Shown: piece after piece, positions 6,293-63,619 of the stretch
Numbering within the stretch: the stretch's first letter is position 1
Layout: the number at the start of each line of letters is the position of its first letter
Origin: Kappaphycus alvarezii
Taxonomy: Eukaryota; Rhodophyta; Florideophyceae; Gigartinales; Solieriaceae
Reading direction: 5' to 3'
Assembly (NCBI GenBank): GCA_002205965.3
Contig: NADL03000649.1
Location: forward strand, 310,001-374,000
DNA: 64,000 nucleotides
Position numbers and translations under genes: made by a program
Notes under the pieces: generated by a model
Databases searched by the model: none
The model's input: only the letters and a program-made list of their open reading frames with translations
Told to the model about the DNA's origin: nothing

Positions 6293-7887
6293 TCACACCC
6301 CTGTTCCCTGTTTTCCGTCACTTGCCGTCACCTCTGAATCCGCACCGCCCCTCAAGGTCACTCCTTTCCTCTCGTTTCCTCTTCTTTTCCTCACCACCAC
6401 AACCGTCAGCGAAACCAACACCACGAATACCGCGCTTCCCAGGCTCACAACAGCACAAACGGCAAGTCGATTCTTGCAATTCCTCCCCAACTTCCGAAAT
6501 CTGCCGCCTGGGAAATTCGAAAAAGTGTCCACCGTCGCCTCGTCATACCTCAACAGAGATTTCACCGCCTCCAACCCTTCCTTACACGTCGGCTCAATCT
6601 CCTCCGCCGCAGCAGGAACCCCTCCAGCCCGCTCGCCGTCGACTGATTGGGTCTCAGTTCCACCGTGTAACTCAATGCCCCTCGACTCGCCATCCAGTCA
6701 CTAAGAACACCGCCCGCCAAGTAAACTGATGAGGCTTGACGGAACAAATATCGCTGCCCAAACGCGCGTGACATGTCCCTCGCAATGACCCTGCCTAGAT
6801 TGCAAAACTGTCGCCATCGCTCGGGAGTGTCTCTGGTGTAACTCCATGGACTCAGCACCTCTGCACCGTACGAATGAAAGTCGATATGCGATTCGATACC
6901 ATCCAAGGATTCAATGTACGACGCACAACCTGTGACTCGGGCTCTGAAAACGGGCCGGTACCAATGTACTGCTCATCGCAGGGATCCTTGAGCGTCGGAA
7001 CCTTCGGTAGGGACTGGTCCGTAGCCCTTTGCCAATTGCGATTGAGGTCGACGCCGTCACGGTTCCGATTTGGGCAACCGGCAATGCGACGGTTCTTGCG
7101 TTGAAGGCGATGAGTTTGAGTGAAGCGATAGCCATCTGGATTGATGAGAGGGATGAGATGACTTGTGTGGAGCGCAGAAGACGGACCAGGGGGTCGTCGC
7201 GGGGTGAGTGGCGAGATGGACTGTGAGTGCGTCGGCAATGTAGGTGGCGACGTGGGTGGCGATCCACTCGCGGGCGTGTTGCAGGGCGGTGAGAAGGATG
7301 CGACGGGGGGAGGAGGAGTCTGTTTGACCGATTGTGAGAGCGTGGATGGGATGTCGGTTGATGGAGATCCGATAATGGTGAGATTGACGAGGGGATGAAG
7401 ATCAGGAAGAGTTTTCCACTTTGCGAGGAGTGCAGGGTGAGTCCAGTAGCGGGAGTAGAAAGAGAGTTGATGGTCGGGGTGGATCGGAAGAGAAAGGGAG
7501 GCGGGTGGTAGTGGTAGTTGGAGTGTTGAGAGGGGGAGGTGGAGAATAGGTGAGACAGGTTGACGGAGAGGATGTTGGTGTGGGGTTGAAGGGAGGGTGA
7601 GTTGACGAGGAGGGAGAGTTGGTGGGGTCAAGGGCAAGAAGGTTTGGTTGGTTGAGGAGGAGTTGTTCGGGAGATAATTTCAAGGGGGCAGGGATGGGAG
7701 AGCAGAGTGTAGGTTGGTTTATTTGGGAGTGTTGAGTGAGGGTAAGGGATACGAGGGCGAAATGGTGGTAAGGGGGTTCGAGAGGGAAGGAACATGGGAG
7801 TTGGGCGAGCTGGGCGTTGGTGGAGGGGTAGAGGAGGAGGGGGCAGAGAAAGAAGAAGATGACATGAGGGGAGGAGGGGGGGAGCAT
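6293..7887 (-). CDS. M14 zinc carboxypeptidase, type I membrane-anchored
   Basis: Metallocarboxypeptidase that removes C-terminal residues; predicted to act outside the plasma membrane or in the secretory lumen. A signal peptide is visible at the start (FFFLCPLLLYPSTNAQLAQL). All family landmarks follow: zinc motif HAREW (7264-7278), substrate-binding NPDGYRFT, RKNRR and DLNRNW, the pfSEPES block (GTGPFSEPES), third zinc ligand in HIDFHSYGAEVLSPW, and catalytic Glu in YTVELRP. The C-terminus adds a hydrophobic span (VSLGSAVFVVLVSLTVVVV) followed by RKRR and a tail of about 30 residues, so the enzyme should be anchored with a short cytosolic tail. The frame shifts at least three times between blocks, so the catalytic core appears complete but the reading frame in this assembly is broken. 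Confidence 0.85.
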
Positions 7888-18300: not shown

Positions 18301-19930
18301 CACCTTTCCTATCTACGTAACACGGATGCGTCACACTATGCAATTGGCGCCGCGTTGGAACAGAAATAATTAATTTCTAAAAGACCGGTCTCTTTTGCTT
18401 CCAGGACTCCTCACGTTGCCGGGCAAAATTATTCGGCCATGACAGGGACCTTTTGGCCGTTGAAGATTCCCTCAAGTAGCGGAGGTCCTACTTTAAGTAA
18501 AGCTCAATCGGGCCACTATTCCTCAAGATACCTAGAAAACCAAGAAAAATTGTCGCCGAGAAAAGTGATACATATGGAAAGATCAGTTAGTTTAGAATTC
18601 AAAAGAATCCGCATTTCAGTAAAATAGAACGGATTGGAGGATGCCGTATCAATGCAACTACAAGATGTTTCGTCATCTGATCATAGGAGGAATTCATTCC
18701 TCCAAGACTTTATTACCAAGAAATCCTCAGAGCCAAGCCAATAATATTTCAACTACATAATTCGCGAAAACTGAGATAGTGGGTCAAGCAGAAGACTATT
18801 TTACGGATGGGAACCTCAAAACCTATTATCAAGACACGAAAGCGCCCTTTGAGCATGGAGGGTGCTTTTACTTAGAAAAGGAAATATTCATGTACCAGAA
18901 GGGAATTTTAGAGTCAAGTCCCTGCATTAATACCATTGCACACCTAACATTGGAAACAGAGGAATAATCAAAACGATCAATTAAGTATGATAAAAGTACA
19001 ATTAGAAAATTTAAGATCGGATGTAATACGGTACGTTCATTCCTCCTAATTTAAGAGAACCAAAGCAAACAGTTAGAAGACCGCGGTTCTTTTACGACCA
19101 CTAGAAACACCAAAAAACAATTGGACTCACATAAAAATGGATTTCGTCACAAACTCTCCCAATATCGAAAACAGGAAACAACGGCGTGTTCACAGTCGCA
19201 GACAGACTTTCTAAGATGATCAGAATATTACCAGCGACACCAAAAAATTCTCCTGAAACGGCTCTGCTGTTCAAGAATAATTTATGAAGGAACAAAGGAA
19301 TACCAGACAATATCATGTGTGACCAAGATCCCATTTTCAAGTGTAGATTTTGGACAAACCTCCTCGCTCTACCAGGGCAAAAGGTATACAATTCTTCTAA
19401 GTAACACACACACACTGATGGAAAGTCGGAGATAATGAACAGAAAGATCGAGCCTCGACAAATCAGATTGGCATAATCACATAGTAGTTTGATTTTGCTT
19501 ACAACTCCTCTACGAATGTAACCACTACTCTCTCACCATTATTCCTCAACTATAGACTTCGAACAAGAAAAATGAAGTTGGACATTTTAGCATTAGAAAA
19601 CTTAGAGGAAGCAGGTTTCCTTAGAAATATGCTCGAGCCATTAAGGAAACTCCTGAATCAAATCCGAACATACAGTCAATCCACAGCAAAATATGGAAAA
19701 AGAACAGAAAAACATCTGGTTCCAAGGTTGATGAAAACATTTGGCTATCAAAAAAGATTCTATCACTCGAAGATTAGGCCAGATATCGCAAACTGAACTA
19801 AAAGTATTGTGGTCCGTTTGAAATCACTGAAGACATTAACGGCGTGACGTAGCGTCTGAAATTACCGCATCCGATGATTGACAGAGGAATACAAAATGAA
19901 TTCCATACTAGCCTATTGAAGCCTTTCTTT
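15400..19930 (+). mobile_element. Degenerate Ty3/gypsy LTR retrotransposon
   Basis: Fragments appear in Ty3/gypsy order on the plus strand. A gag-like stretch lies near 15.8-16.0 kb (DQIDRYPRDLKAYIRK). Reverse transcriptase runs from 17.47 to 18.05 kb: EMSELRRKVDEIFKYECI, GAPILFVSNKDNDIRM, INITSGYHQISLHETKF, MIVFLDGILIYSK. RNase H is near 18.33 kb (DASHYAIGAALEQ, RPVSFASRTPHVAGQNYSAM). The integrase core is at 19.1-19.4 kb (GVFTVADRLSKMIRILPA, CDQDPIFKCRFWTNL), and the integrase C-terminal end at 19.79-19.92 kb (YCGPFEI, FHTSLLKPF). Many stop codons and frame changes interrupt it, and the catalytic LDD of reverse transcriptase reads LDG, so the copy is dead. Flanking long terminal repeats and target-site duplications were not identified. 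Confidence 0.88.
16904..17011 (+). repeat. 39-base in-frame tandem repeat in the gypsy relic
   Basis: Two full 39-base units (16904-16942, 16943-16981) and a partial third are about 75-85% alike. Each has a core of CATTT, GC(A/G)AACAT and AATCAAC-like positions. In the element's frame each unit codes for 13 residues (FRKHYLINLLRDS, then FCKHQLINILKDS, then FREHQIR), so the repeat arose while the region was coding or preserves frame by chance. Confidence 0.75.
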
Positions 19931-38489: not shown

Positions 38490-41400
38490 CTATCTACGAG
38501 ACTTGATCAACTCATCGGCTGCCTTCACATCCCAACCTGTTGCGAGGAGCGCGTCTATGAGAGTGTCAGTGTCCCGGATCTCTGTTAGCTGCCGAAGTTG
38601 TTCGACCAAAGCGGGAAAAGTTCGAAACTGCGGCTCAGACTGTTTCCGAGGCTCAACCAGAACACATCGCCCCAAGTTTCTGATTCAGAATCCGTTGACC
38701 TGTCAAATCAACGATAACCTTCCTGTCCTCCCTTTGCGTGACCCCTGTAAGTTTTGACGAACCAGCCACCTGTGCTGTCCTTGTCTGATCACTAGGCGTC
38801 TGATTCGTCCCTGCTTGACTTGGCCCTGACTCAGGGGATGAGACTGCATTCGATGTCGAGGCATGATGGCTGTCAGTTTTGCCGCCATTCTTTATCCTCT
38901 TGTCGAAAGATGCAGTCGACGACGGACAGGGAGCTGATGCTCGCCTTGTTGCCTGTTTCGCCAACTTCGAAGAGGCAATCCTGGCGACGAGGGCGTCTAG
39001 TCTACCTGATGGCAGCATCGTCTCTTTTCTCGAGTCAGCTTGCCTTCCGTTCTCTGTACACCTCCTAGCTAGGTTTCTGCATTCCTGAGCATTTTCCAAG
39101 TCCGCGGAGCTGCCATTCACCTGTACATTCTGCCCCTGCTCATTACGCTCAATCCCTCTCGGAGCAGGTCTTGCGCAGCTTCTATTCCCGCAGTCTTCCA
39201 CAGGGTTAGACGATGGGCCGACAACTATGGCGGATTTCTTGGTCCTCCCTGACAAACTTCTACCCAACCGTAGTCTTTTCGACGTTGACTCAGCCCTTGA
39301 GGGTGAATGTGAGCCATCCTTTTCATTTGGGTGACTAGAAATCTGTTTCACACTGGGAGGTGAACCCAATGCTACAACCCTGGATTGAGAACCCTTGCGG
39401 AAGGATTAACACCTACACCAGCCTCCCCCGCATAATGGCTTCATCGGTGTCAACAAAGGGAACGCCTGAGGCACGGCAGAGGAAACCATGTTGTCAGAGG
39501 CAGGAGACCTCCATTTCCCCTAACACCTTTCCTCGTCGGATGATGATTCCGAGAGGGCCTCTCGTTCGGGTTTTGGGCGGCGCCATGGCGAACGGCCTCT
39601 TGATGCGCTCTGGGACGACAGGAGGAGGTCTTTGCCCAGATGTATAATCGATGGAGAAAGGGAACCATGCAGATTGAAGTCATTGCTGCAAGTGGATTCC
39701 TCTCTGGTCACCATTAACCGTCGCGGCATTCATTTGCGCAACCGGAACGCTAGCGTTCCTCATGTGTGCAGAGTGCACGTTGCGGTTGCCAACCGTCAAA
39801 CATTGCAAGTTCGGGTGACCCATGTGCATAGATTGCATGATCGGGTGACCAATTTGCACAGGTTGCACTTCTGGTTGCCCAGTTGTAAAGGTTGGGTGCT
39901 GGCGCTTCCTCCAGAATCATGTTTGCTAGTAGCACACAATGAAGGTGCAAGCAATCTTAATCTAGCAGTGTTTTGAGGATTCGTTTTCAAATATCGATTT
40001 TGAGCCTACTTGCGCTGGAACATTCACCCCACTCTCGATAACTGCTGCCAATGAGGATAAAGTCCTGGATTCACTCCTACGATACCACCGGGGATCGTAT
40101 TAGGAAGTATAGGAACCAGCTTACTTTGCGGCGCACCCGTACTTGTGACGAGACATGGCCCATGCAAGCGGTATTCGCAATACTGCAGCTTCCTGCGGGG
40201 CACTTGAACCGGCACGAACATTGTTCATGATATTGTTGACACTGGCCGTTGTTGGAGACGCGGAGACTTGCATTTCTTCGATCGGTAACTTGCTCGCACC
40301 ATGGTCAACCTTCTTTTTTTTCGCCGCCGCCGGAGGATTCCTCAGATGCGGAATAATCATCATCTGATATATCTTCCAAGCTTGGAATACCGCGTTAGGG
40401 TCCTGAAATGCTTTCTCCACCTCACTTTCACTGCCTAACTCAGATCCGAAATCCTGGATGACATTCCGCCTTGCCCTTTGGCTCTCTCCTTCTTGCTAAA
40501 AGCTCCATCCCGCATTATCGACTGTAAAGTCTCTTCATAAATATACGCCGCAGTGGACGGATCACGGCTTTCAAGGGCTCGACGGGCCGCTTGTAGATTT
40601 GCGTCCTTGTTGAGCCATATCGGGATTCTCATCGGGCCATTCTCATCGGCGGAATCTATCCAGATCGCATCATGTGAAATATCCGGCAAGGACGTTTCTC
40701 CTTGGCGGAGCAGTAACGGTCCCACTCCTTCGCCGAGAAACTCGAGCATCAACGGCCTGTTGCGATAGAGCTGAGCATACCACTTTTTCAACTTCATCTG
40801 GTCTCGCCCTTGCAGTTGTGGCGTTCAAAATGGGTGCAGAGAGTCGGTTAACAGAGGACGACCCTCGCAAGAGCAGCAGGTTCCTCTTTGAAACGACGCA
40901 AGACCCAACATCGGGGCTTGGCTTCGGCAAGCTTGAGTTTCACTGCCACATTGTCAGTGCTTGGTATTTCATTTGGAGCACTACACATCAATTCCTGCTC
41001 GAGACCAGTCGCATGTAATTGTTAATGTCGAGGTCCTGCAAAACTTTCTCAAGATCCTTCTGTCGGACGCTTTGGTCCAAGCAGCTCCGTTTGAAGTGTT
41101 AAACTTCCCAGCTCCACAGCCACTGCTTGTGTGCGAAGCTTGTGGCGCTGCTTGTCATAAATATGCTCGTCTGCCGATTTTTCTGTCAACAGTCTGATGA
41201 TATGAACAGTTTTCTTCTGCCAATTCTCTGAATCCTCGACACTGCTTGCAAGTCTGCAGAAGGATTCCAGTCTGAATCAAAAAGGATGACAGTATCTGCA
41301 GTTTGTAAGTTGATTCCTACCCGCCTGCTCTTGTGGTCAGCAGAAAAACCTTCAGTTCAGACTGCGGCGAATTAAACTCTGAGATAGTCCGCAACCGATC

Positions 41401-44329
41401 TTCAGACGCAGTCAAACCATCAAGGCGGCCGTATTTGACACTAACAAATCCATCAAATCCTCCAGAAAATCGACTGTGCGTCGAAACTGCGAAAAGATCA
41501 AAACTCTGTGCCCAGCCGCAATAAGGCGAGGTAGGCTGTAATGTAGAAACTCAAACTTCCCACTGGATGCGACTACCGCAGATTTGCCTGTCTCTGCTGC
41601 GTTGAACATGCAGTCCGATACCGTAAACGGATGACTGCTCACCATTCTCATACTCATTATGATGTTGTGGGCTGAGCAATTATTTTTGCATCAGCCCTGC
41701 GCCGAAAGTGGAGCATCAAGGCCTCTGAAGCTGACTCATTGGACATCGAATCACAACTTCATCGGCTGAGGTGTATGAAGGACACACGTCTGCCCTTACG
41801 CGTCGCCGGAAAAACGGTCTAATGATGGTATGAAGACGGTCCACGATAACAGATTGTTCTGCGTGCGTAAGGCGGTTTTTGGCTGACCTTGACCCCTGAC
41901 GAGGATCAAACGGGCCGCAAACCATGTTTTGAACGTTGCCTTGCTGCTGAAAATTCGCGGGTTGAGTACATTCATTAAGCTCCACAACTCTTTCAGGTCA
42001 TTGGAAAGTGGAGTTCCCGTCAATAGCAGTCGTCTTTGGGCGTGCTTATAACCTCTGATTCCCAGATTGAGCTTTGAATCGTCATTTTTCAAGCGATGGG
42101 CCTCGTCAACGACAGGTACTCGAATTCGACGTTGCGAAACTTTCGCAGTACCCTCGGTAGTGCCTCATTCCTCCCTCTATCTGCTTCTTGAACAAGTCGC
42201 GCAGTGCCACTCGTAGCTCGTTACCATAATATCAAAATTGTCTTCGTCAAGAATTGCCTCAAGTTCCTCGAGCCTTTCTTCGCAGCTTCCGAGATGTGTG
42301 ACAACGTTGATCTTGCCTGGATAAAAAAGACGAACTTCCTTCGCCCAGTGGTCGCACACGTTCTTTGGAGCAATCACAAGGTGAGGTCCTCTTGAACCTG
42401 ACAGCACTAGGGACGCTAGAAAAGTGACAGCCTGGATTGTCTTGCCAAGCCCCATCTCGTCAGCGAGGATCGCGTTAATTCCCTGGGCATCGAGCGTTAG
42501 CAGCCATTTCACACCATCGATCTGGTGAGGTTGCAACTCAGTGTTTTTGCCCATCGGAGGGACCAGCTCTTCCTCCTTTCTTGACTGAAGTACACCACCG
42601 CTGCCGTCATTTTGGCCTTCGGCAGATTCCGGGGCAACATCATCGCCCGCACCGCCCTCCTTCAATTCGCCACTCCCTCCCGCTACCCCTCCCTTAGCAA
42701 GCGACTTGGAACCTGCCGGGGCATTTTGGTTGGCAGTCGCCTCAGCCATCGCCCTGTGAAGCTCGCGCGAAATGTCGCGCTTTGCTTCAAGAGCTGGTCA
42801 AGTCGCTCCTTCTGTTCCTGTGCAGAGAGCTCCTCCTGTCCTGAATTGAACGCGTCCGCCGGGCGAGTGCGCTTCCTTCTCTTGTTGACACCTGGCTTCC
42901 TGCCCCTCCGCGTCCTCAAATTTTCGGTTCCTCCTCATCCTCATCCTCTTCATACTCGTCCGCACTGGCGCTACTCTCTACCCCAGTGCCTTCGTCTATG
43001 GCAACCTCCTCATCTTTTGCCGGTTCGCTCAAAAAGTCGCTGTCCTCCTCTTCCTCCTCAAGCTCCCATTTTTGTTCCTGCGACCCCGTCGCGTGGCTGC
43101 CCGCTTCGATTTGCGAACGCCCGTTGGAGTTTGTTTATTCATTTCGCCATTCTTTCGCTTCTTTGAGACCTTGTTGGCGGCCTTCTTGCGAGAGGCTTGG
43201 ACACTGTTGTCCTTTCTCGCGTTGGCGAGCCTTGCAGCCTTGCCTTGACCCTATGAGCCAAAGTATTCTTAGTCTTTGGCAATGGGACACTGGCCTGGAT
43301 TCTGTCTGATGCTCTGCCACGCTGGTCTTTGGGGCGCCCTCTCTTGGTTCCAGTGTTAGTAACGACATTGTCCTCATCATCATCATCGACTTCCACTTCC
43401 TCCAAGACCTCTACGTGGTCATAGGACTGTTCGCTGAGCACCTCTTCAGACACCTTTGGATGGACACTAGGTTGATTGTTAACCGTCTTGATTTCCTCGG
43501 AACGGGAACATCATCTTCAGACGATGGAATGGGATTGTTTGGACCAGAAAGCACGGCATTTGCAATCTGTGCCAAAGTGACCTTACCGGAAGCTGAACGA
43601 AACAGCTTGCGAAAGCGAGCCTTTTCTTTTGGATCTGACTCACTGCGGAGCAAGCGATCAAAGCGGTGCTTTTCAATAGGAGGAATGCGTGACACAGATG
43701 CGAGGCGGGAGGAATGGCGACGAGTGGTTGGACGTTGGACGTGCGTTGGCATGACGTAATCTTTGTCGAGATCATCATCCGTGTGTCCTTGTCTCTCGAC
43801 TGTGATGTGGTTGGGATGGGGAGTTGGGATCGCCGGTCACGGTGGATTGAGGTTGAGCGGGTTGCGGTGCGGGATCGGCGGAGCGGAGATTGCGAGAAGA
43901 GGGAGAGGACTTGCGGACGGACTTTGTAGGTTTTGCGTGACGAGCCGAGGCGTGGCGAAGAAGAGAGTCGACGCCGGCAAAGGGGCGGGACTTTGTGGGT
44001 TTCTTCTTGAGGAAACGGGCCCTGTCGACAACTTGCGGGGAATATTCGAGAGGGGAGGGTGGATTGTTGGATTGGGTGGGAGGGAGGGGGGTTGTTCGTC
44101 ATCGGTGTCTCGGTTGAGGTCGATGGTGGGGAGGGGGAAGATCGGGCGGAAGGGAGGTGGGATGTGGGGGCGGGGGCGTCATCGACGGAGTGGACGTGAG
44201 ATTGGGGGAGGGGAGGTGTCCGAGGAGGGGTCATCGTCGGACATGTGGATCGGGTCGTTGAATAGTTCTCGTGGAGAGGGAGGGGGTTGAGGGACGGTTG
44301 CGACGGGAGGAACGGGGCAAGGGGGCCAT
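38490..44329 (-). CDS. SNF2-family chromatin-remodelling ATPase, very long
   Basis: Nuclear DNA-dependent ATPase. The start is the ATG at 44329 (context CCACCATGG). The N-terminal part is disordered, with an acidic block ([16 protein letters not shown]) and an AT-hook (KRGRPK, about 43331-43345). A helical segment, [11 protein letters not shown], lies before the ATPase, as in DDM1/HELLS. The ATPase has motif [14 protein letters not shown] (42439-42464), Ia [25 protein letters not shown] (42096-42107), [55 protein letters not shown] and VI RIGQ-like [11 protein letters not shown]. The subfamily is uncertain: DDM1/HELLS or ISWI-like. After the helicase comes about 0.8 kb of helical sequence, then a long Ser/Gln/Pro-rich tail, ending in a UBA/CUE-like segment ([20 protein letters not shown]). 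Many frame changes interrupt the gene. The tail could belong to a second gene. Confidence 0.8.
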
Positions 44330-49850: not shown

Positions 49851-52800
49851 ATGCTTCCCACCGCTCTCCTTTTCATCTTCCTCGTCCTCGCGCCCAGCTT
49901 CTCCCCCGTCCTCTGCAACGACTCTCTCAACTCTCGCCAGACTCCTCTCTCGATTCCAGAATCTCAGCACCAGTCCAAAACACCAACCACCTGCACCATA
50001 ACTACCCATTCCGAACCCGTCCGCAAGCTCCTCCACATCAACGGCACCGCCGATGATATCCTCTACTTTTCACTCTGTTTCACAAATCCCACATCAGGTC
50101 TTACCCTCTTCGAATCTTCCTCAAACCCAGATGTCCTTCGCGTCGATCAAACAGAACCCTCCGATGTCTCCCTCGACCGCTTTCAACTTGATCTTGCCGC
50201 CTGTCAGAATATCACCGCCACCTTCTCCTTTGATCGCATGGTTGGCACCACAAATTACAGCTTGCAAGTTCGGAAAACTGCTACCCAAATCATTTGCGCA
50301 ACCAAGGTATCATTTATCATCGTCGGCTTCTCCATCCTGCAAATCTCCTTACTCCCCTCCACACAAATTACCGCCCGAAATGCAACAACCAGCGCCGTCA
50401 ATACTGTCGTTTCTGGCTCCCCGCACCAACTGCGCATGCATTACGACGATGTACTTGTCACTCGCTTCATGATGTTGCATCTTTATTCAGTTTCCAGACG
50501 GTACAAATTCCACTTCCAAGTCCAAGTCCTTCCTGCTCGACGCTCTCAACCATCTTGTTGTGTCTTCAGAGAATACCGATGCAACCTCACCTGTCTTTTT
50601 GGACAAGCATTGCAAAATTGTCCAATCCGGTCAACAGCTAAGTCACTCGTCCTGTGGATTTGCCATTGAGCTCGCTGCCATGAACACAGGTTTCTACTTG
50701 GCCATGTGGTTGCGCTTTGAGCCTTATCATGATGGCACATCCCTCTTTTTGTTTTCGTGGGATTTCATCCTTCTTGGGGACCATGACCTTGATCATGAAG
50801 CTCTTGAGAATATTCTCTACGTCTCTGTTGTAGGCAACCCACCGCCCATTGTTCTTGACCTCTATCCAAGGACACCACTTCGCCGCACGGGTGGCGAGCA
50901 TCTTACTGTGGTCATGGACAATACGGAAGGCTCGAATGTCCGTTTCCTGACCATCGGAGTGCTCACTTGTCTCGAGTTGCATGACTCGTATCGTCAGAGA
51001 CCAGACGGAACCTATGAGGCCATCTACATTACGCAACCAGGGAATGGAACCAATTTAGCGTGGGACTTGCATGTGTCGTATCCGGAAGGGATCACGCGCA
51101 CAGCAAAAATGACGTCGCTGCAGTTGCACTTCGCTATTTCTTACTCGACTGCCGTGTTGCAGATCCAGTCTATTTCGCCAGCGTTTGGGCATGCAGGTGA
51201 TCTCATCGTCATGACCGGGTATTTCGATGGTTTGACCCCGAGAACTCGAACCACGATGTATACATTGGTTCAAAGACGCTACGCTCTTTGAGAGTTACCG
51301 TGCTTGTTAATGACGCTGGGACAGAGATATCCTTCGAGCTTCCAAGTCGGTCTGCCGTTCGGTGCTGCTTACCAGTACGATGTCATAGTTGTTGTAGGTG
51401 CAGAAACCACCGCAAGAGACTTTCACATACAAGGCAAACAGTGTCATCTTGGAGGTTATGTATACGGTGCTAGCTACGATCTAGAACAGGAACTTTATGT
51501 GGTGGGCGGGTGCGCAGTGTCCCGTTTTGTGGCTTCTCTTCCTTCCGGAGTTCCAGAACCCGAAATGTTCCATTGGTCACTTGTGGGCGCGGCAGATATT
51601 TCTGGCCAGAATCTTGTCGTCGAGCAGACAAACGTTTCGAATGATACAAGGACTCTTCTACTGTTTCCGCAGACTTTCGGTGGAAAGCAGGGCAAGTATG
51701 AGGTCAGTGCGAGCTGCTCAATTGACGGTGAGGAGTTCACGTCCACAGTTGTCGTGATGAAGCAAATCAAACCGGTGATTGGAGTCACCCTTCCCAAGCC
51801 GCTTCCGAGAAGCATTTCCAGTCCTGACGTCCCTTTGCGAGTAGCGGCAGTTATTACGACACCCCGCACCGACTGCTACAACCACACTGCGAAAATTATC
51901 TACCGATGGTCCTACGGAAGTGACACCCAAGAGTTTTCTTACCGCAATTTTTCAACTTTGCCCGTGAATGCATCGTCAACGCCTGCCAAGCTTGGGAGAG
52001 AGTATGTCATACCCCAGTCAAGACTCCAGGTTGGCAATCTCTCCGTGTCACTCTATGCTTACATGGAAGATGAGCCGGCAGTGTTTGGAATGGCGACAAT
52101 CTCTTTCACAGTTCTGCCCGCTCCTCTCGTAGCTGTGATCGGATATGGGCTTCAAAAATCCTGCATAGCGTCGCCACGGATTTAAAAATGACGCAGAGAA
52201 CAGTTATGATCCTGATGGGCCTTATCTACGAAATAGCAGTGAGGTATCAAGCTTTGAATGGGAATGTACTGTTTATGAGGCTTTGGCCAATGAAACAAGC
52301 TCGCAAAAATGCAGCCAAGCCTGTTGCCAGATACGGATGCGACTTCTTTCACAGTCACCAAGCAGTCCCTCAATGCAGTAGGTGATCCTCGAATCGGAGG
52401 GTAAGGATCGCTTATTCTTCATACATACTCAGTTGTGGTCTCCGTGGACGGCAGAAATCCTCAAAACAGGTCCAGAGTATTGAGATAAGCCCGGAAAATT
52501 TGCCGCTGCATCTTTAGGTGGTTTGCGGATCGTAGAGATAACAGAGGTAACGCCGTTGACTGGAACAAGGTGCGGTATTTTGATGATATCCTGATCGTAC
52601 CAGATGGACAACGTCTCCTGGGCCTTTGAAATAAGGGCTCCGGTTTCTAGTTCCCTCATTCTAAAGCAGCCAGGAAACCTGATACTTCACCCAGGCTACT
52701 TTGATCCCACACTTTCGGCCTCTACACAGTCACTTCCTCTGGGTATCAAGGCTAATTCACTCGCTCCCTCTCAGAACTACGAACTTGTGATACCTATCGT

Positions 52801-54598
52801 GTCCACTGTGTCAGGTGTGGAAAAGGGCGAGTCTACGATTGTCTTCAGCACAGAAGATATGCCTATATTAATACTACCGGAACTTCCTGTAGTACATGGC
52901 GATGCCGAGACGACTTTTACAGCCTTTGCGCGTGTCAATTTAGACTCTCCCATGATTTCCTGTATTATTTCTATCTCGTTGACGATGATGGTGAGCAATA
53001 CTGTCTTGATGGCTGCAGTGGAAGCCCCTATGTTCAGTTCACGTTTTCCGAGCCTGGAAACTTCAAGATTCTCGTGAAGCTCATGGATATGCAAGGAAAA
53101 ACCTTTGATGAAGCCTCGTTCAACCAAAGCATACATATCACTGCAGATTCTTTTGAAGTAAGTGCTTGTCGCATCCAAGACAAAGTTTGTCCGCATTTGA
53201 AGAAATCTTGAGAAAAATTCATCATCAAGGGGATCACGGAAGCTTCGAGTTGCTTGTATCATCTTGTCCTACAAGATGCGAGGAGGCATTCTGAAAGCTC
53301 CTCGGATGACGACACCGAGGTTTTGGATCTTGCGTGGATGCAATGCATCAGATTGTGCAAAATTCCGCCCCGACCACGATGACTTCGAAGAGCTACGTTA
53401 CAACCGCTGTCAGATTTGAGCATAGACAATGAATATTTTGCGTCCCAGGGATCATGTACACCTTATTTTCTATGGTTGACAAAGCAATTAAGCAATTCCA
53501 GATACCGAGGCCTATGATGTGCAAAGTGAACTGCTGCTATTCTACAACTTATCTGCTAGGCACGTGATCAGTACCCTGCTGGTTCTTCATCAAGAGTTCG
53601 TCTGCAGCAATTCGGATCTGGTTCAGGTCTGGACGCTCGAAGCCTCCTAATTGATATGTATCGCTTGCAAGAAGATCATTTCACAGCTGTTCTATCAAGA
53701 GACGCCGAATGCGGGCTTGTGAAGCACTTTGATACAATCGTAGCCGAGGAAGAGCGCTGGGGATATCAACTCCTTTATTGTCAACAGACACTCCTCCAGG
53801 TCGGCCAACGGAAACAATCCTGAGACATTTGACATTTTGAGCACTTACGAAAAGGCGAACGAGAAACCTAGTTACTCAACCTTTACACTAGCAGTTCTCT
53901 GTAATCCGGACCAAGCAAAAGGTATACGAGGAGAGGCCTCTAGTTTCGAATGGTGTGAGGTGTTCAGCGGATTTGAAGCAGAGGCTAATGAAACAGTCGT
54001 GTAGTAGACCCGAGCCAAAAGCGTGTTTTCAGTGTTATGGAAACAATTGATTACACATGGCTGAGCGGAATAAGTGGAGACGAGCCGCCATCGGATACAC
54101 TGTTTCTTGTGACAACAAACGTTTCTCTGGTCGAACGGGGAGGAATTAGTTTATGGGTGCCACCAAAAATTCACGACTGTTACGCAGTGAACACGTCAAT
54201 GGCAAGACTTGGTGTTACGTCCAGCAGAGGATGCTTGTCGGCGCAAGGCTTTGTTGTTCAAGATCTCGGAAAGCCTTTCGAGCCAAAGGTGTTAATGCGC
54301 GATTTGCGAAGAAACTTTTCTGCTGTCGATGCCAGCGTTCATCAGATGGATCTCAACAATTTTAATGACCGCGTCCGCTCCAGGTGTCTTCGGTGCTGTT
54401 GGCACTGATTGTCCTGTCAGCGCTCGAAAGCCTACCCTCGCTCTACCGTACGGGGAGGATACAGATTTCTTGTACATCGTTTTGGGCGGAGTCACGCTCG
54501 CCTTGGTCGGAGTGACATTACTTGGGTTGCCACTGGTTCGGCGTTCCAGGCATATTCTGGTGCGGCGGCAGCTGCGGCGTAAATCTAGAAAGCTTTAG
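49851..54598 (+). CDS. Large type I membrane protein with IPT/TIG and REJ-like regions, copy 1
   Basis: Predicted cell-surface protein of about 1,580 residues. A clear signal peptide starts at 49851 (MLPTALLFIFLVLAPSFSPV). Two IPT/TIG-like beta domains follow: PIVLDLYPRTPLRRTGGEHL (about 50.84 kb) and SISPAFGHAGDLIVMTGYF (about 51.17 kb). A REJ-like stretch near 52.2-52.35 kb contains NSYDPDGPYL and SFEWECTVYE. Near 53.0 kb is the cysteine motif EQYCLDGCSG (codons near 52993-53022). Many N-glycosylation sequons occur (NGT, NIT, NYS, NVS). A single hydrophobic span (YIVLGGVTLALVGVTLLGLP) lies near 54.47-54.53 kb, followed by a short basic tail (RRKSRKL) and stop at 54596-54598. The middle (53.2-54.0 kb) is the least readable, with many frame changes. 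It is paralogous to the next gene. A role in cell recognition or adhesion is inferred from domain type only. Confidence 0.68.
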
Positions 54599-55426
54599 TA
54601 CTGAATGATCGCCTGTCAGACGAGTTGCGAAGTTAGAAATATCAATGTATTGTAGAAAAAGTATCGCAAGGATAATTTTGAGGGAGTGGAATTGAACTTC
54701 TTGTGTAGAATCCCTTTCAACATGTTCAGCCGGTCATATACGCAGTAAAACGAAGTCCTTTCCTGAATTGCAGCGATCTACTATCAAGGACCGCTAGCTT
54801 CCACCGTTGACTCGGAGCTTACGACTGCTGGTCCGAGACTAAGACTACAAGGGTTTAAGGGTGCATTGGATCTCGCTTGCACTCGTGTGAGAAACAGAAT
54901 ACTATGCACGGAGGCCGCATGGTCACTCTGGGGGCGCATTTGAAACGAGTTGTGGTCCGTCGTCCGAATTAAAAACGGCAACTGAATTAGAAGAGACAGT
55001 TAACGTCCTGAGAAGATCTGTTTGTAGAATTGATATATTTCTCATTAAGCAGGAAGAAGCAAAGTAGGATTCCTTTCCGGTGAGATGTATTATATCTCTT
55101 CGAAGCGTGTGTAGAAGGATAATTCGCTACGCAGAATCAAGTTTCAACTATCCAAATTTCGTTTCCCACGAACGAACGGATTCCCACTGCTGCCATTCCC
55201 TTCCTCTCGTTCTCCGAGCTTCAAACGCCTATGCCCCAAGACAAATATTTCTAGAGACTTGGTTAGGCTAACTTCTCTTTGTCGCTGTTGACCTCATTTG
55301 AGTTTGGGAACGCAGCGGACCCCCACTGTATGGCTGCGATCGATATAGTGGGCTTCCTGAGGCAAATCGAAGGCCTTTAGAATAGGCACCGTTCTCTAGT
55401 GTAACAGACTAAGAACAGCCAGGAGA
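54599..55426. promoter_or_regulatory. Spacer between the tandem REJ/IPT genes
   Basis: The 828 bases lie between the stop of copy 1 and the proposed start of copy 2. No conserved frame was seen. It should contain the 3' end of the first transcript and the promoter of the second. No CAGTA cluster is present. Confidence 0.4.
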
Positions 55427-58400
55427 ATGGTGCTGTTATCATCGCTTTATTCCTTCCTTGGAGCCATAGTCATCGCTGCAATCACTGTTCTTCGAGAGCA
55501 ATCCCATCTTCAATAGCAAAAACTATGACGTCCCATGGCAAATCGGCCGGAATTTCTTACGGCCTCAGAGCAGACAATCCCGGAATGATACTAACGATTT
55601 GAGCGGTTTCTACACGATGGTCCTTACCTCCGTCGAGTTTTGATGGTGAACGGAACTTCAGAGGATATTGTGACGTTCCCTTTCGTCCGGAGCAAGGAAA
55701 GGCACCTTCAGACTACAACTTCACTTTTGCTTCAAATGACACTGAAATCCTAGACCCCGATACGGACATTTCCTTTGCTCATCGAGTTTGAGAGAATGTT
55801 GAATATAACTGCAGCTATCGACTTTAACAAGTTTCCTGGTGTTCAACGTTTGACTTAGAAGCCAGAAGGATAACTGGGGACTTGTAGTTGACTCAATTTC
55901 TGTGGACTACTTGGCTGCCGGGATGGCTATTATGGCCTCAGAATAGATCTTTGATAACAGGTGCAGGACGGTCTCTAAGGATCCCCAGCTACGAGGACAT
56001 TTACGACGAACCACATCGGGAGTTTGACGTGTTCATCCAATATTTGAACGGGACAGACTCCTCGCATATTTTGAAGCATTCAAATCCTATCCCAAGATTT
56101 ACTATCAGTGGCATGACAGCCAAATTTGACGATTACAAGGTCAAGTTCAATGGGATGACGAACTCTGCTCAGTATCAGGCGGTGATTGGGATGGACGAAA
56201 AGTTATTCTGAATCAAGGATGCGGAATGGGTTTCGCTATGGGGATCGTAAACGACTCTTATTTTGACGGATTCCACTTTGCCTTCGACTTTGAGAAGAAT
56301 CGTGCAGGAAGTTTGGAGTAGTTTTTGAATGGGAAGAATTCACAACCTACTCGGAGTTTGAGGACGAAATGTTTACAAACTATCAACGCGAGATATTGGG
56401 TCAACCACCCGTAGTGGTGATGGCAATCGAACCAGAGATTGTATTTGATCGAAATGGAGATCAGGAGCTGTACGTGGAAATGTTCAACACAGCTGATGTG
56501 AACATTACTTCATTCAATGTGAATGGAATTCAGTTTCCGTTGATTCCCGGATCGAGACAAAGTTTCTCCACTCCGCCAGATTTCTTTGAATCTGCAAAGT
56601 TCTTGACGAAGGCAGGCAAAGGCAAGAGACTACCATGGACCATTTCGGGAACCAGACAAAAACTGTCAACTGGTGGTAATAAGATTATTGAAGTTGCAAC
56701 CGTCATCGACGAAACTGGCTTCCAGTTTTCTTACGATGGAGTTGATATTTACGTCCACAATGTAAGCCCAACGTCAGTTTCTGAACGGGGTGGGGAAAAG
56801 GTTGTGATGTCTGGAAATTTTACGGAATTCAATGTTAGCAATCCGGATCACGGGTTCTATTGGCAGTACTACTCTCGAGCAAGGCAGTTACACAACAACC
56901 TCCATCTTCGATCGAGTTTCTAAGCCCCCCGAGGCAGAAAATCGGTTCTGGGTGGGAGTATAGCGTTATTGTGCGGATTGACAATTCTTTTTCTCAACCA
57001 GTTACCCTTGGATATGAGCCTATTTCACTTACCGCTCACCAACACGTTTTTGGGACATCTTTTGACCCAGATATTGGAGTGCATGCGGTGAGCTCTTGTG
57101 GAAATACCACCTTTATGGCTGTCTTGCAGAATTACAACGGAGCTGATGGCTTGTACTCATGGAAGTTATTGAATTCTGCAGGCTTTGATCTGTTCTCTTT
57201 TGAAAACGCTACTTTATTGGTGAAGGACGAACATTCTCTTGACTTACCTAACAAGTTCATTCCACATTTTTATGCGATTTACCAACTTATCGCTGAAATT
57301 GTCGTCGGTAATCTTTCCACAACGAGTGTTTTTCATGTGCAGAGGACCGAAAACGTGTTGTCGGTGTCAACTTGGTTCAACCAGAGAATAGGACAATCTT
57401 CTCCTCCTGTCAACATGCGGATAGTAGCAAAAGTTGATATCCTGATTGCTATCAAGAGACTCCTGTTTTAACTTACGAATGGGAATATGAGGATAAGGTG
57501 CAAACTCTTCTTGACGCGGAGAGGGTGGGAATGGGACCGCTAAGTGTACACAACAGTGAACTGAAGCCACATTTTCACAAGTACATCTTCTCTTTCAAAA
57601 CAGGTCCGGAACAGTCGACGGGAAGATAACCCCGACAAGACTTGGACGAGAACTGGTCATTCCAAGGGAGGACTGCAACATGGAATTCACCGCGTTCGGC
57701 TGACAGTTAGATCCGACAAAGATGCGCGACTTATAGGGACTTCAGGTACCTCTGTTACCATTGCTGAAGACGAACTCAGGGCCATCATTGGAACAGGCCA
57801 GGCGTCGAGAAGAGCATCTGATGCAGAGGACCTGTATATCTCTGCCCAGGGAAGCACTGATCCTGATATTATTGCAGGTGGAAGCCCATCTTCTGGCTTG
57901 TCGTATGAATGGACTTGCCTCTTTTCACACAGTCTTAACCTCAGCTCTGCAGAAAACTGCTCTAGCATTTACTTCCTCCAAACGCAAGAAATCTGTCTTC
58001 TTTCTCTATCCCGATGGAGACACTTCAGAACTACTCCAGTCTTGCGACAGATGATATTGAGGGTGAGGTTTATTTACGATACACTCTGACAGTGAGAAAG
58101 GGGGCCAGATTAGGCACAGCTTCACAGACTATTGCTGTGGTGAGCGCAGGAGGTTTGAAGCTGGCAGGCTACGAGAGGATTGAGTTACTGAACTCTCTCG
58201 GAGAGCGCTTAGACCACCGCGCTGTTCCATTTTGGGATGAAGTCATCATTCGTCCAATTACATCCCTGAACACAGAATGGCGTTTTCGTCTGGAGGAACC
58301 ACTTCATGAAAAGCGTACTTTCTTTGCGGTGGTTCGAGGCTAATATCTAGCCCAGGATACTACTCGGTGGCCGGAAGGAGCGATCCTGGTTTTCAACGAC

Positions 58401-60865
58401 TACAATTAGGAATCAAGGCCGACGAGCTCTCTCCAAATGAAGACTACTCTTTCTCGATATCCATTCAAGACCTGGAAAATTGTCAGATGAGGTATTGATC
58501 TCTTTTCACACGGTTGAAGTTCCATCCATAATCTTCCCCAGCATTGCTAGCAACACTGGAACAGTGAACACTACATTCAAGGCTTCAGCCACATCCTTTA
58601 ATGCAAACTCATCCTATTCCTTCCAGTTTTATCTCATAGAGCAAAATAAGCCTACGAGAGAATATTGCATCGATGGATGCACAGGCGCAAACACAGTGCG
58701 TTCCAGGTGCCAAAGCCAGGACTTTATATACTGTTCAGTGTCGACTTTTGTGTGCTAGTGGCAAGAAACTGCTTGCTGTTAAGAACAACACTGCCTTGCT
58801 CTCCGTGCAGGCCTCAGATTCAGTTAGACAGGGGACCAGTTCGACCAGGAAATAGATCGAGATTACATCCTTGGAGATGATGGCTCCGTGAATCAAAAAG
58901 GATTCTTCATCACTGAGTCTATGTATGAGCACAACGAAACTGCCGTAGCCATCTCTGATGACCCCTCCAATGACCTATGCGCAAATTACACAAGAAAATG
59001 GGCACGCATGTCCCGTGTTATTGTCGGGAATGAGCTCCCGAACACAGCGAACGCACGCAACTATGTTAGCCTGGCTTCAAACTTTGCTCGTCTGAAATGC
59101 GTTGAGGATGCTGAAACCTTGTATGAACTTCTTGGCATGGTCGACGAATCAATTTCTCGCACACCTTCAGAAGAAACTCTGACCACGACAGATATTCTAG
59201 GAAGGAAGACCTCCCTAATGTGGAACTTGAAGAGGAATTACTTCTTTTTATAATTTCAGTATGAGTCGCGCATTATCGAGTGGCTGGTGGTTCCTCTAGA
59301 GGAAGGCTTGTGCCTGCTGAAGGGCAGTGAATAACCTGGTTCTCGACCTTTCCGAAATGTGGATGACTCACATCACTGCATCAGCTACAAGTGGAAGAGT
59401 TTGTGGATGGGACGCCACATACACTTCGAGTTCAATTGATGGTGAGCCAGATATTCTTTAACGCCATCCAAGTCTGAACCTCCTCTCGGCATAAATACCA
59501 TTAGAGTTGCCGTAATGTGTAATCGTGAGCGGAGGACTCTCTGTCGACTCCATTTGCAAGTTTTGAGTGGTGCGACTCGGTGTATGATTTATCCGCAAGT
59601 GAACGAATATTGATTACTGTGGCAGAATCATTCGATTACCCATACTTATCCGGTGTTCAAGGGACGAATCGCTCCGATAGTAGAAGACTTGTAATGGTAG
59701 ATATCACCACTCTCGGTGAGAGTAATCGACTTGTGTCGGCAATGTCGGACAGTGCTGTTGTTGCTCAGACTGAATCTGAGGATGAAGAGTTTGAGGCATG
59801 CTACCGAATAAGACTAACCATGGGAAGCGAGGCAATGACCAGGTCAGATGAGTGTTCACGCAATGTTCCGTACCATATGTGGCCCCGGAAGGCGTACGGA
59901 AAATCACTCAGCGAGCCATTTCAAAACGGGCGTACCAACGAAGAACTGCAGGAGTTAAAGTTACACCAGAGACAAGAAACGACTCAGCCACTGTCATTGC
60001 AAAGTCAAATATTCTTGGGCTTTACGGAGCGTACCGCACAACTTGTGACAGACCGGCGTCTATCTCCCTTGGCGGTGTAGGTCTAACTCTTGTTGGACAT
60101 GCTTGGAATAACTATGGTCATTCTTGCGATAATGGGTCTGACTTATGGGCTGATAACGACGTTAGTTGGAGTTGCAGTGTTGAGTGATGATGAGGAGGAA
60201 ATCTTGGAAAATTATGTCGAGCGCGACTTTTTTGGGCGAGGACAAGTCCGTCTGAATATGGTCCAAGATTCCGAAAACGGGTCATCTGCTTCAGGATCAT
60301 ACACTTCAATGATAGCAGAGCGGCTAACAGGCGTGAGTTGCCTGCGGAGGGAGAATTTTAGAAGAAACGGATTCAATACCTGACAATGTAGGGTCTGCGG
60401 TATTTTCCGCACGGGAGAGCCCGCATCAGGATTACCAAAGGAGGAGAGGTAGAGGGATCTGGGACTACCGCGATTTTTGTACAACTACATGGGTGGATAG
60501 AGAAAGGACAGCCTAACTGGCCGAATTCACAATCAGAACATAAGAGGTTGTAAAGAAGCCACTTCAAACGAGCTTGAAGACCAACTGGCACAACTGACCT
60601 CACAGAGCTGAGAGAAATGGGGCCCGTAGACTTGTGCTGCAGATCTCGAGCGATGAGGGCAGCTCACTTTAAGGCATACCCCACGTGCGAGAGTTATTTG
60701 CATAGCACCGAGGGCGCGACTGCATGTGAGGGCATTCCTTGTTTCGCTGCGAAGGTTGCTAGTGTCATAGATAAGGTTGCGTCTTTGATCGATAGGAGTG
60801 ATCTGGCGCAAGCTGTTGTTTTGTTACGTCAAGCACTGCATACAGCATATATCCAAAACGCGTGA
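55427..60865 (+). CDS. Large type I membrane protein with IPT/TIG and REJ regions, copy 2
   Basis: Paralogue of the preceding gene, about 1,800 residues. The ATG at 55427 opens a hydrophobic leader (MVLLSSLYSFLGAIVIAAIT). Blocks shared with copy 1 appear in the same order: RRVLMVNGTSEDIV near the start, an IPT/TIG-like stretch (NVSPTSVSERGGEKVVMSGN, about 56.77 kb), TRLGRELVIP, a REJ stretch (GLSYEWTCLFSHSLNLSSAE, then YTLTVRKGARLGTASQTIAV), LGIKADELSPNEDYSFSI, and the cysteine motif EYCIDGCTGA (58666-58686). The membrane span lies near 60.07-60.18 kb (GITMVILAIMGLTYGLITTL). Unlike copy 1, it continues with an acidic cytosolic tail (SDDEEEILENYVERDFFGRG) and probably about 200 more residues, to a TGA at 60863-60865. 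Frame changes are frequent, and the start and tail end are the least certain points. Confidence 0.65.
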
Positions 60866-62383: not shown

Positions 62384-63478
62384 ATGACTCCAGCCTTTGT
62401 CCCTCCGCTACCTCCCCTCCCCGTCGTGCCCGCACCTACAACCCCCCTCTCACACATCTCCACCCACGCACCACAATCTCCCATCACACCTCGTCTCCCT
62501 CCCCTCTCCCCTCTTCCATCCCACCCCAAACCTCCCCCCCACGCATGATAGCCGGCGCAGATACAGACCCCTCCCCCTCCCACACCTCGTTCACTCAAGC
62601 ATTCATCAAGTTTACACGCCCACACACCATTCGCGCACCATCCTCGGTTCCGTCGCCGGTTGCGCACGCGCACTCCTTGAATCCAACGCCTTTATCGACT
62701 GGGCACTTTTGCCTACCGCGTGTCTCGGCCTCTTGGCCCTTTTGCTTGGCAACGCTTTTATCGTCGGTATCAATCAGATTTATGACGTCCGCGTCGACAA
62801 AATCAACAAGCCCTTCTTGCCCCTCGCCGCGGGCGAAATGTCACCCCGTCTCGCATGGGCCATCGTCGTCTCCAGTGCCCTGTCCGGTCTGGCTATCGTT
62901 CGCCTTTGTTTCTCTCGTCTTATTTTCGCACTCTACGCCTTTGGCATGTCCTTTGGTGCCCTTTATTCAGTCCCCCCGTTTCGTCTCAAGCGATACCCGG
63001 CCATGGCCGCCATTACCATCTCTTGTGTCCGTGGCTTTCTCATGAATTTTGGTGTGTACCATGCTACAAAGGCCGCCCTGGGGGTCCCGTTTGCATGGTC
63101 TCCGCCCATTACTTTTCTTGCCGTGTTTATGACCGTCTTTGCCTGCGTCATCGCCTTGTCAAAGGACCTGCCCGATATTCGTGGCGACCGCGCCGAGGGT
63201 GTACCTACGTTTGCTACTAAAGTCGGTCCGAAACGCATGGTGCGCATTGTCGTCGCTTTACTTGGTGCTAATTACGTCGGTGCTGTGCTAACAGCGCTCT
63301 TGGCTCCGACAGGCGCATTTCGAAGTCTTGTGTTGGGCCTAGGACATTTGTTCCTGGGTGCATGGCTCTGGCGCTATCAAACAACCATCGTCGCTGAAAG
63401 CCAGGACTCCATCAAGGCTTTCTATCGCTTCATATGGAAGCTGTTTATGCAGAATACCTCCTCTTCCCGTTTATATAA
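62384..63478 (+). CDS. VTE2: Homogentisate phytyltransferase (tocopherol biosynthesis)
   Basis: Integral membrane UbiA-family prenyltransferase of the plastid that joins homogentisate to phytyl diphosphate, the committed step to tocopherol. The start is set at the ATG at 62384 (MTPAFVPPLPPLPVVPAP), giving a Pro/Ser/Thr-rich leader that may be a transit peptide. The family blocks are FIKFTRPHTIR, the first Asp-rich motif NQIYDVRVDKINKPFLPLA (from about 62772), FGALYSVPPFRLKRYPAMAA, VRGFLMNFGVYHA, the second motif LSKDLPDIRGDRAEGVPTFA (from about 63159), and the conserved end FYRFIWKLF. In a neighbouring frame the end continues YAEYLLFPFI to a TAA at 63476-63478. Three single-base losses are implied: in a C run near 62540, near 62634, and in a T run at 63444-63446. 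Geranylgeranyl-using homologues cannot be excluded. Confidence 0.85.
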
Positions 63479-63619
63479 AACAGGCAACCATTTTTCCGGT
63501 CTCATACCACCATCAAACAATAAACAGCAGTGGACATACCAAGCAATTGTGGCATCTCCTGAGGCATTCGAGAAACGGATGAGATTCTTGACACCTCACT
63601 AGGGTTCACTGAAACTACC
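63479..63619. other. Short convergent 3' spacer
   Basis: Only 141 bases separate the stop of the phytyltransferase from the stop of the minus-strand gene at the right edge, so the two 3' untranslated regions are close or overlapping. Confidence 0.5.

Follow-up and report, generated by a model that had tools for sequence, protein, structure and literature searches.

Most studies of proteins carrying the REJ (receptor for egg jelly) domain deal with them as components of cilia or sperm that are linked to polycystin channels, and red algae are not known to have flagella. Large, single-span proteins with IPT domains are exemplified by fibrocystin (PKHD1), which is not known to contain REJ; the proteins described here resemble it in size, single span and putative IPT. 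In the relevant passages of the literature, SpREJ proteins are given 1–11 membrane spans (PMC1934368), so that a single-span REJ protein is already known. Among algae, passages on Ectocarpus Esi0130_0068 describe the product of a male-gamete gene, a REJ surface protein with a GPS, 6–7 spans and a match to polycystin channels (PMC4700764). The word 'receptor' is absent from the passages available of a review of red-algal signalling (PMC12024005), and a search of a literature collection returned no paper that brings the REJ domain or the receptor for egg jelly together with red algae.

A window of 64,000 nucleotides of the Kappaphycus alvarezii genome (the whole stretch of DNA analysed, from contig NADL03000649.1) contains two adjacent genes for large REJ proteins, copy 1 and copy 2, with the following features:

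49851..54598, + strand: copy 1 gene of about 1,580 codons, with about 21 indels interrupting its frame
49851..49916, + strand: copy 1 signal peptide MLPTALLFIFLVLAPSFSPVLC (sequence; hydropathy peak 2.15 at residue 4)
51160..51405, + strand: copy 1 putative IPT/TIG domain, approximate bounds (PF01833, 19.9 bits, E 7.2e-4, cut-off 20.9)
51871..52375, + strand: copy 1 REJ domain, matched part, profile positions 6-172 of 452 (PF02010, 51.0 bits, E 1.2e-13)
53002..53022, + strand: copy 1 cysteine motif CLDGCSG (sequence)
53587..53604, + strand: copy 1 basic site, form SSRVRL (sequence)
54467..54523, + strand: copy 1 membrane span FLYIVLGGVTLALVGVTLL (hydropathy 2.36)
54536..54595, + strand: copy 1 cytosolic tail of 20 residues, net charge +10, family motif absent (sequence)
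54596..54598, + strand: copy 1 stop codon (same frame in the second contig)
55427..60452, + strand: copy 2 gene, about 28 frame breaks in the window and about 9 in the second contig, C699
55427..55492, + strand: copy 2 signal peptide MVLLSSLYSFLGAIVIAAITVL (sequence; hydropathy peak 2.13)
56750..57020, + strand: copy 2 putative IPT/TIG domain, approximate bounds (PF01833, 20.6 bits, E 4.3e-4, cut-off 20.9)
57635..58143, + strand: copy 2 REJ domain, best matched stretch, profile positions 37-200 of 452 (PF02010, 65.0 bits, E 6.4e-18)
58666..58686, + strand: copy 2 cysteine motif CIDGCTG (sequence)
59292..59309, + strand: copy 2 basic site, form SSRGRL (sequence)
60040..60182, + strand: copy 2 membrane span region, approximate (hydropathy 2.53 in L012 and 2.23 in the window frame from 60087)
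60183..60449, + strand: acidic cytosolic tail of copy 2 (by the second contig, 89 residues with a net charge of -12)
60213..60242, + strand: copy 2 conserved cytosolic motif YVERDFFGRG (sequence)

The preliminary description had treated these genes as a homologous pair, and the comparison of the two proteins supports this. With frames picked by codon usage alone and independently for each copy, blastp aligned copy 1 with copy 2 at E 1.5e-22 over 982 positions (20%) and again at E 2.7e-7 over 253 positions, whereas the best of four control comparisons with two neighbouring genes, their frames read likewise, gave E 0.45. As judged by sequence and hydropathy, both copies possess a signal peptide, the WEC/EWTC element, the cysteine motif C-(L/I)-D-G-C-(S/T)-G and one main span. 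The NGT-x-DI block is likewise common to the pair, but end-to-end alignment shows that it is absent from the other four genes of the family described below. The two tails differ as had been noted, that of copy 1 being short and basic, and identical in the window and in a second contig of the same genome, and that of copy 2 long and acidic. The start codon of copy 2 is ATG 55427, and alignment to L012 places its stop at 60450-60452; its proposed extent to 60865 was not borne out, coding beyond the stop being unsupported. The hydrophobic stretch of its span is about 40 residues long in the second contig. The two copies are 24% identical, and each is at least as close to its best match elsewhere. 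On account of this low identity and of their non-sister position in a weakly supported tree, a recent tandem duplication was ruled out.

The reading frames of both copies are interrupted, and the breaks look like indels of the assembly. At the switches examined, the frames to either side overlap with no gap between them, which rules out introns. Programmed frameshifting was rejected as well, since no common site was seen at the breaks and many of those in copy 2 are missing from the second contig. There, copy 2 needs 9 frameshifts instead of 28 in the window, and 619 of its codons form a single open frame. Should the breaks be real, the genes would be pseudogenes and the proteins would not be made, a reading to which the number of breaks lends some weight, as copy 1 is broken equally in both contigs (21 frameshifts in the window, 22 in the second). 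However, a conserved SNF2-type helicase and an M14 peptidase in the window show the same kind of breakage, and the open stretch of copy 2 also speaks against decay. Substitutions between paired contigs argue against it too: pooled over 7,532 codons of five of the six family genes, pN/pS is 0.27 (0.26 for copy 1 and 0.23 for copy 2), compared with 1.28 and 1.72 in the two shifted, wrong phases. Both members of five contig pairs entered this test; the L010 gene, with three L010-type contigs, was left out. The five genes tested are under purifying selection, and we consider it very improbable that the two copies are pseudogenes or artefacts of assembly. When frames were sought jointly on the near-identical pairs of contigs, needless frameshifts resulted, and this approach was discarded. 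Rfam scans at gathering scores and tRNA scans gave no match.

A REJ-like stretch had been suspected in both copies, and the Pfam profile PF02010 (cut-off 25 bits) identifies it. With the frames joined, both copies score well above the cut-off, at 51.0 and 65.0 bits. In unedited open frames copy 2 reaches 43.4 bits (E 2.3e-11) and copy 1 24.1 bits, just below the cut-off; in whole frames with X at stops the values are 37.9 and 20.1 bits, respectively. The match is confined to the N-terminal 170-200 of the 452 profile positions. For IPT/TIG (PF01833, cut-off 20.9 bits), one domain per copy is suggested by scores of cut-out stretches that fall 0.3-1.0 bit short of the cut-off, but the several domains per copy that had been proposed were not recovered: PF01833 has no match in the remaining IPT-like stretch of either copy, and the joined proteins give none at E <= 5. 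Two other family genes exceed the cut-off, with 27.8 and 31.7 bits, and in the PDB a seven-row family profile finds MET (IPT region, E 2.6e-8) and plexin A1 (E 0.023). Searched with a profile built from copies 1 and 2, the PDB gave nothing at E <= 1; four PDB matches of the window IPT pieces, all at E 0.16 or more, were taken as chance, and an AlphaFold model of 50473-51288 was discarded at a pLDDT of 34.5.

Like SpREJ proteins and polycystin-1 (PKD1), the K. alvarezii proteins combine PF02010 in a long ectodomain with Ig/PKD/FNIII-like modules beside it. In contrast to them, the GPS, PLAT, channel and PKD-repeat array are undetected, and a putative IPT/TIG domain and a conserved tail motif are found instead. 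The reported lack of GPS, PLAT and multi-span channel parts thus stands in Pfam scans at E <= 1 to 5: GPS (PF01825) has no match in either copy at E <= 1 or E <= 5, nor at E <= 1 in six C-terminal frames of relatives, PLAT and channel domains have none in the same proteins and frames, and each protein has one main span. One could imagine degraded relatives of polycystin-1, that is, former REJ-GPS-PLAT-channel proteins now lacking their channel half and kept as regulators of a separate PKD2-like channel, as in animals the REJ domain defines the PKD1 family according to the passages available (PMC1934368). We regard such an origin as improbable, given frames free of GPS and PLAT and a genome in which the PKD_channel profile, searched without a positive control, has no match. 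Lectin, Sema, PSI, kinase and plexin cytosolic domains also have no Pfam match in copies 1 and 2. This sets them apart from SpREJ1-type sperm receptors, which combine a lectin domain with REJ, and from MET and plexin, with which they have the single span and a probable IPT region in common but to which they add REJ.

The pair belongs to a larger family. A search of 336,021,096 bases of the genome listed 11 REJ places, all above the cut-off, which group into five loci; with the tandem pair counted in, there are at least six genes. These bear out the family of surface receptors with REJ, IPT and a single span that had been postulated from the pair; no relatives were found among viral contigs and prokaryote genomes. 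The six genes are alignable end to end at 20-27% identity (one stretch per gene, taken from 13 near-complete copies, namely window copies 1 and 2, L009-L018 and L019), and each protein has its main hydrophobic span near the C-terminus. A conserved basic site of the S-x-R-R-L type (SRRRL or TRRRL in three other genes) precedes the span by about 240-290 residues, on the membrane side of the REJ part, and may be a site of cleavage.

Beyond the tandem pair itself, our analysis reveals a new cytosolic motif, Y-[VI]-E-R-D-x-[YF]-G-R-[GE], in five of the six genes, copy 1 being the one without. In all five carriers it follows the hydrophobic peak by 17-27 residues, and among all ten-column windows of these five it ranks first for conservation. 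The tail pattern is TAYRTNGARMGNGAYNTNTWYGGNMGN; the degenerate tail pattern occurs once in the window, with 0.00 expected by shuffles; of 20 loci examined, the ten from L009 to L018 also have it once each. The 'diverged signalling ends' of the preliminary description thus apply to copy 1, with its different, basic tail, but not to the family, in which the other five tails have this conserved motif in common.

We propose that the two genes are probably functional and belong to an old family, its products being large type I membrane proteins that serve as single-pass recognition or adhesion receptors with one common cytosolic partner. The ectodomain would be a chain of predicted beta-sandwich modules, comprising an N-terminal domain, IPT/TIG and the REJ stretch (FNIII-like in polycystin-1), and this chain may act at the cell surface as the recognition or adhesion surface. 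Its divergence across the family could provide for different ligands. Inside the membrane, the conserved motif would dock a single cytosolic partner common to the carriers; with one docking partner, different outside signals would converge on one inside route. Copy 1, its tail swapped for a short basic one, might be a co-receptor or feed a different pathway.

Alternatively, the same motif might serve for sorting and not for docking. The proteins would then be wall or matrix adhesion proteins without signalling, their ectodomain tying the membrane to the sulfated-galactan wall and their tail motif sorting or anchoring them. The length of the ectodomain and its 10-26 N-glycosylation sequons across the six models are in keeping with this, as is the lack of any kinase or other catalytic domain in Pfam scans. 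Conservation of the motif and the one replaced tail are also compatible with sorting, but conservation of a short motif far above that of the ectodomain, together with that replacement, fits a regulated partner slightly better, and we find a purely adhesive role rather unlikely.

By analogy with REJ proteins of sea urchin sperm and Ectocarpus male gametes, the proteins might instead be gamete recognition receptors, binding in a species- or sex-specific manner on spermatia or trichogyne. In the accounts available, Esi0130_0068 is male-gamete specific with signs of positive selection (PMC4700764), and SpREJ1 and SpREJ3 are thought to be linked to the acrosome reaction (PMC1934368). The paired contigs, however, point to purifying selection when the protein is taken as a whole, not to positive selection, although a few sites could differ, and a six-gene family suggests a wider use. 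Moreover, the Ectocarpus protein, alike in being an algal REJ surface protein, is in the passages describing it a single gene with GPS and 6-7 spans, as opposed to six genes with one span and putative IPT in K. alvarezii. A gamete role for copies 1 and 2 is speculation by analogy, and we judge it unlikely. Returning to single-pass receptors with a common partner, we suggest tentatively, and with clearly less confidence, that red algae carry dedicated single-span REJ/IPT receptors whose varied ectodomains report via one conserved docking motif, which copy 1 lacks, and that this would amount to a plexin/MET-like system invented separately.

A six-gene REJ family without detected channel parts in a seaweed lineage not known to be flagellate suggests that the REJ ectodomain is separable from cilia. 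If true, a separately invented REJ/IPT system would show that REJ receptors can function where cilia, GPS cleavage and a polycystin channel are all absent. For the recognition of cells or gametes in red algae, the family genes offer concrete candidates, and the common tail motif would make their inside partner directly searchable.

The window holds the following genes in the parts considered here:

6852-7637, reverse strand: zinc carboxypeptidase (M14) gene, frame-broken
41000-43200, reverse strand: SNF2-type helicase (PF00176, 168 bits)
49851-54598, forward strand: copy 1 of the tandem pair
55427-60452, forward strand: copy 2 of the tandem pair
62397-63602, forward strand: UbiA prenyltransferase gene (Pfam, 132 bits), presumably resembling homogentisate phytyltransferase (NQIYDVRVDKINKP)

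Positions 13000-34000 form a 21-kb AT-rich stretch (35-42% GC) in which no open frame reaches 150 residues. A Ty3/gypsy-type remnant within it is identified by a Tf2-1-like SH3 match near 19778-19927 (35.5 bits).

With frames picked by codon usage alone, copies 1 and 2 matched in blastp with an E value of 1.5e-22 over 982 positions, plus 2.7e-7 over 253, against a best value of 0.45 in four control comparisons with two identically read neighbouring genes, confirming that the copies are homologous as the preliminary description had proposed. When the two were aligned jointly with frameshifts tolerated, 29% of 1,479 aligned residues were identical, but fitting them together inflates this value; end-to-end identity is 24.3%. 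The pair is adjacent, yet old as judged from its sequences. The REJ domain assigned to both copies was recovered by Pfam (cut-off 25) at 51.0 bits in copy 1 and 65.0 bits in copy 2 from the joined frames, at 24.1 and 43.4 bits from single unedited open frames, and at 20.1 and 37.9 bits from whole frames with X at stops.

A whole-genome PF02010 search returned 11 places, all above the cut-off; this is a lower bound, because the search missed copy 1. Blastn comparison of the ten that lie outside the window, together with the window itself, yielded five near-identical sets (94-99% over 8-9.8 kb including flanks): L009/L015, L010/L011/L017, window/L012, L013/L014 and L016/L018. Every REJ locus has one or two near-identical counterparts (94-99%) on other contigs. 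The assembly, whose contig C645 contains the window and which totals 336,021,096 bases in 884 contigs, seems, from these sequences, to have retained either both haplotypes or recent duplicates. The C-terminus of the UbiA gene differs in L012, and the gene 3' of another family member (L009 8288-9001, L015 7935-9899) is one that we take to resemble copine (C2 plus vWA). The five sets and copy 1 represent six distinct genes, which can be aligned end to end at pairwise identities of 20.4-26.7%. FastTree joined copy 1 with the L010 gene (0.87) and copy 2 with the L018 gene (0.91), both supports being weak. None of the genes examined requires introns, and the L010 gene can be read as a single 1,577-codon protein after joining frames just once.

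The IPT/TIG-like domains described for the two copies persist only as near-threshold matches: cut-out stretches scored 19.9 (copy 1) and 20.6 bits (copy 2), just under the cut-off of 20.9, and the joined proteins gave no Pfam TIG match at E <= 5. Among the family loci outside the window, TIG scored above the cut-off in L010, at 27.8 bits, and twice in L013, where separate stretches reached 31.7 and 22.6 bits; L009 (20.7) and L015 (19.6) fell narrowly below it, and no match came from the L012, L014 and L018 frames scanned. In the PDB, a profile built from seven unedited family frames picked up the MET receptor's IPT region (best E 2.6e-8) and also plexin A1 (E 0.023). The L013/L014 gene (contigs C635/C735) carries extra IPT/TIG repeats on an inserted stretch of about 200 residues, and the number of IPT domains thus varies within the family. 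After its REJ part, copy 1 shows Y_Y_Y and PKD, both below their Pfam cut-offs. As first noted for GPS, PLAT and channel parts, Pfam scans of the two copies detected none of these, nor lectin domains; for want of GPS, PLAT and a channel part we do not assign the proteins to PKD1.

In copies 1 and 2 the reading frame changes at intervals of about 180-230 bases, and wherever a switch was inspected the two frames overlapped with no gap between. Breaks of this kind also interrupt conserved motifs of the helicase, identifying the assembly as rich in indels. A blastn alignment of 7,988 bases between the window and contig C699, which carries both copies (L019 and L012), shows 97.4% identity, 88 gap openings and 91 mismatches. 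Copy 2 needs 9 frameshifts in C699 versus 28 in the window, single bases being missing at 24 places in the window and 4 in L012, and its final 619 codons form a single open frame in C699; copy 1 does not improve (22 versus 21). For contig pairs of five genes (copies 1 and 2 and those at L009, L013 and L018, but not L010), frames were picked to avoid stops and differences counted irrespective of outcome. The 7,532 clean codons contain 121 synonymous and 107 non-synonymous differences, 125 of the 228 at third positions in the true phase, giving a pooled pN/pS of 0.27 (0.26, 0.23, 0.26, 0.49 and 0.19, in the order named) versus 1.28 and 1.72 in the two shifted phases. From these values, the helicase and the C699 comparison we conclude that the frame breaks of copies 1 and 2 are mainly assembly errors and that the tested genes are under purifying selection.

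In all six models the strongest hydrophobic peak lies near the C-terminus. Peaks above 1.6 elsewhere correspond to signal peptides or, in a few cases, lie in the ectodomain (two each in copy 1 and L015, one each in L013 and L018). Because the hydrophobic stretch of copy 2 spans about 40 residues in L012, this copy may have two spans instead of one. Beyond the membrane, the contrast drawn earlier between a short basic and a long acidic tail is upheld: that of copy 1 has 20 residues and a net charge of +10, the same in the window and C699, whereas that of copy 2 has 89 residues and a net charge of -12 in L012. The copy 2 stop seen in L012 maps to window 60450, so the end originally placed at 60865 is too far downstream.

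Five of the six genes share the tail motif Y-[VI]-E-R-D-[VFIL]-[YF]-G-R-[GE], 17-27 residues beyond where the main hydrophobic peak ends. In the alignment of these five genes, copy 1 omitted, 6 of the 10 motif columns are invariant, compared with 4 in the best other ten-column window. The degenerate DNA pattern of the motif has a single match in the 64,000-base window, at 60213 (0.00 expected from 100 shuffles), and one in each of L009-L018; it is absent from the other 10 of 20 loci, namely eight short REJ-match stretches, L019 (copy 1) and L020. About 0.04 chance matches are calculated for the whole genome at base frequencies of one quarter. No tail motif is visible for copy 1 in three frames over some 500 bases 3' of its stop, in the window or C699. 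Some 240-290 residues ahead of the span, all six genes align at a basic site, which reads SRRRL or TRRRL in three of them, SRVRL in copy 1 and SRGRL in copy 2; the L018 gene has a weaker form, SKRVR.

REJ and IPT domains are individually already known. Our literature search, with most subscription papers outside its reach, found nothing on REJ in red algae, and the combination of REJ and IPT with one span and the tail motif but without GPS, PLAT or channel is, as far as we have seen, a new variant. The polycystin-1 REJ module is described as containing FNIII-like domains (PMC3677617). Building on what is established, namely domain content, family size, selection and tail conservation, we propose that the family members would be type I surface proteins. 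Their ectodomain, built from Ig- and FNIII-like modules, would bind a ligand of the wall, matrix or cell surface, and their cytosolic tail would dock a partner common to family members; copy 1 would then act in trans or via another route. Two sea urchin REJ proteins are reported as thought to act in fertilisation (PMC1934368) and one Ectocarpus REJ protein as a fertilisation candidate (PMC4700764); by analogy, a role of the Kappaphycus family in fertilisation is possible.
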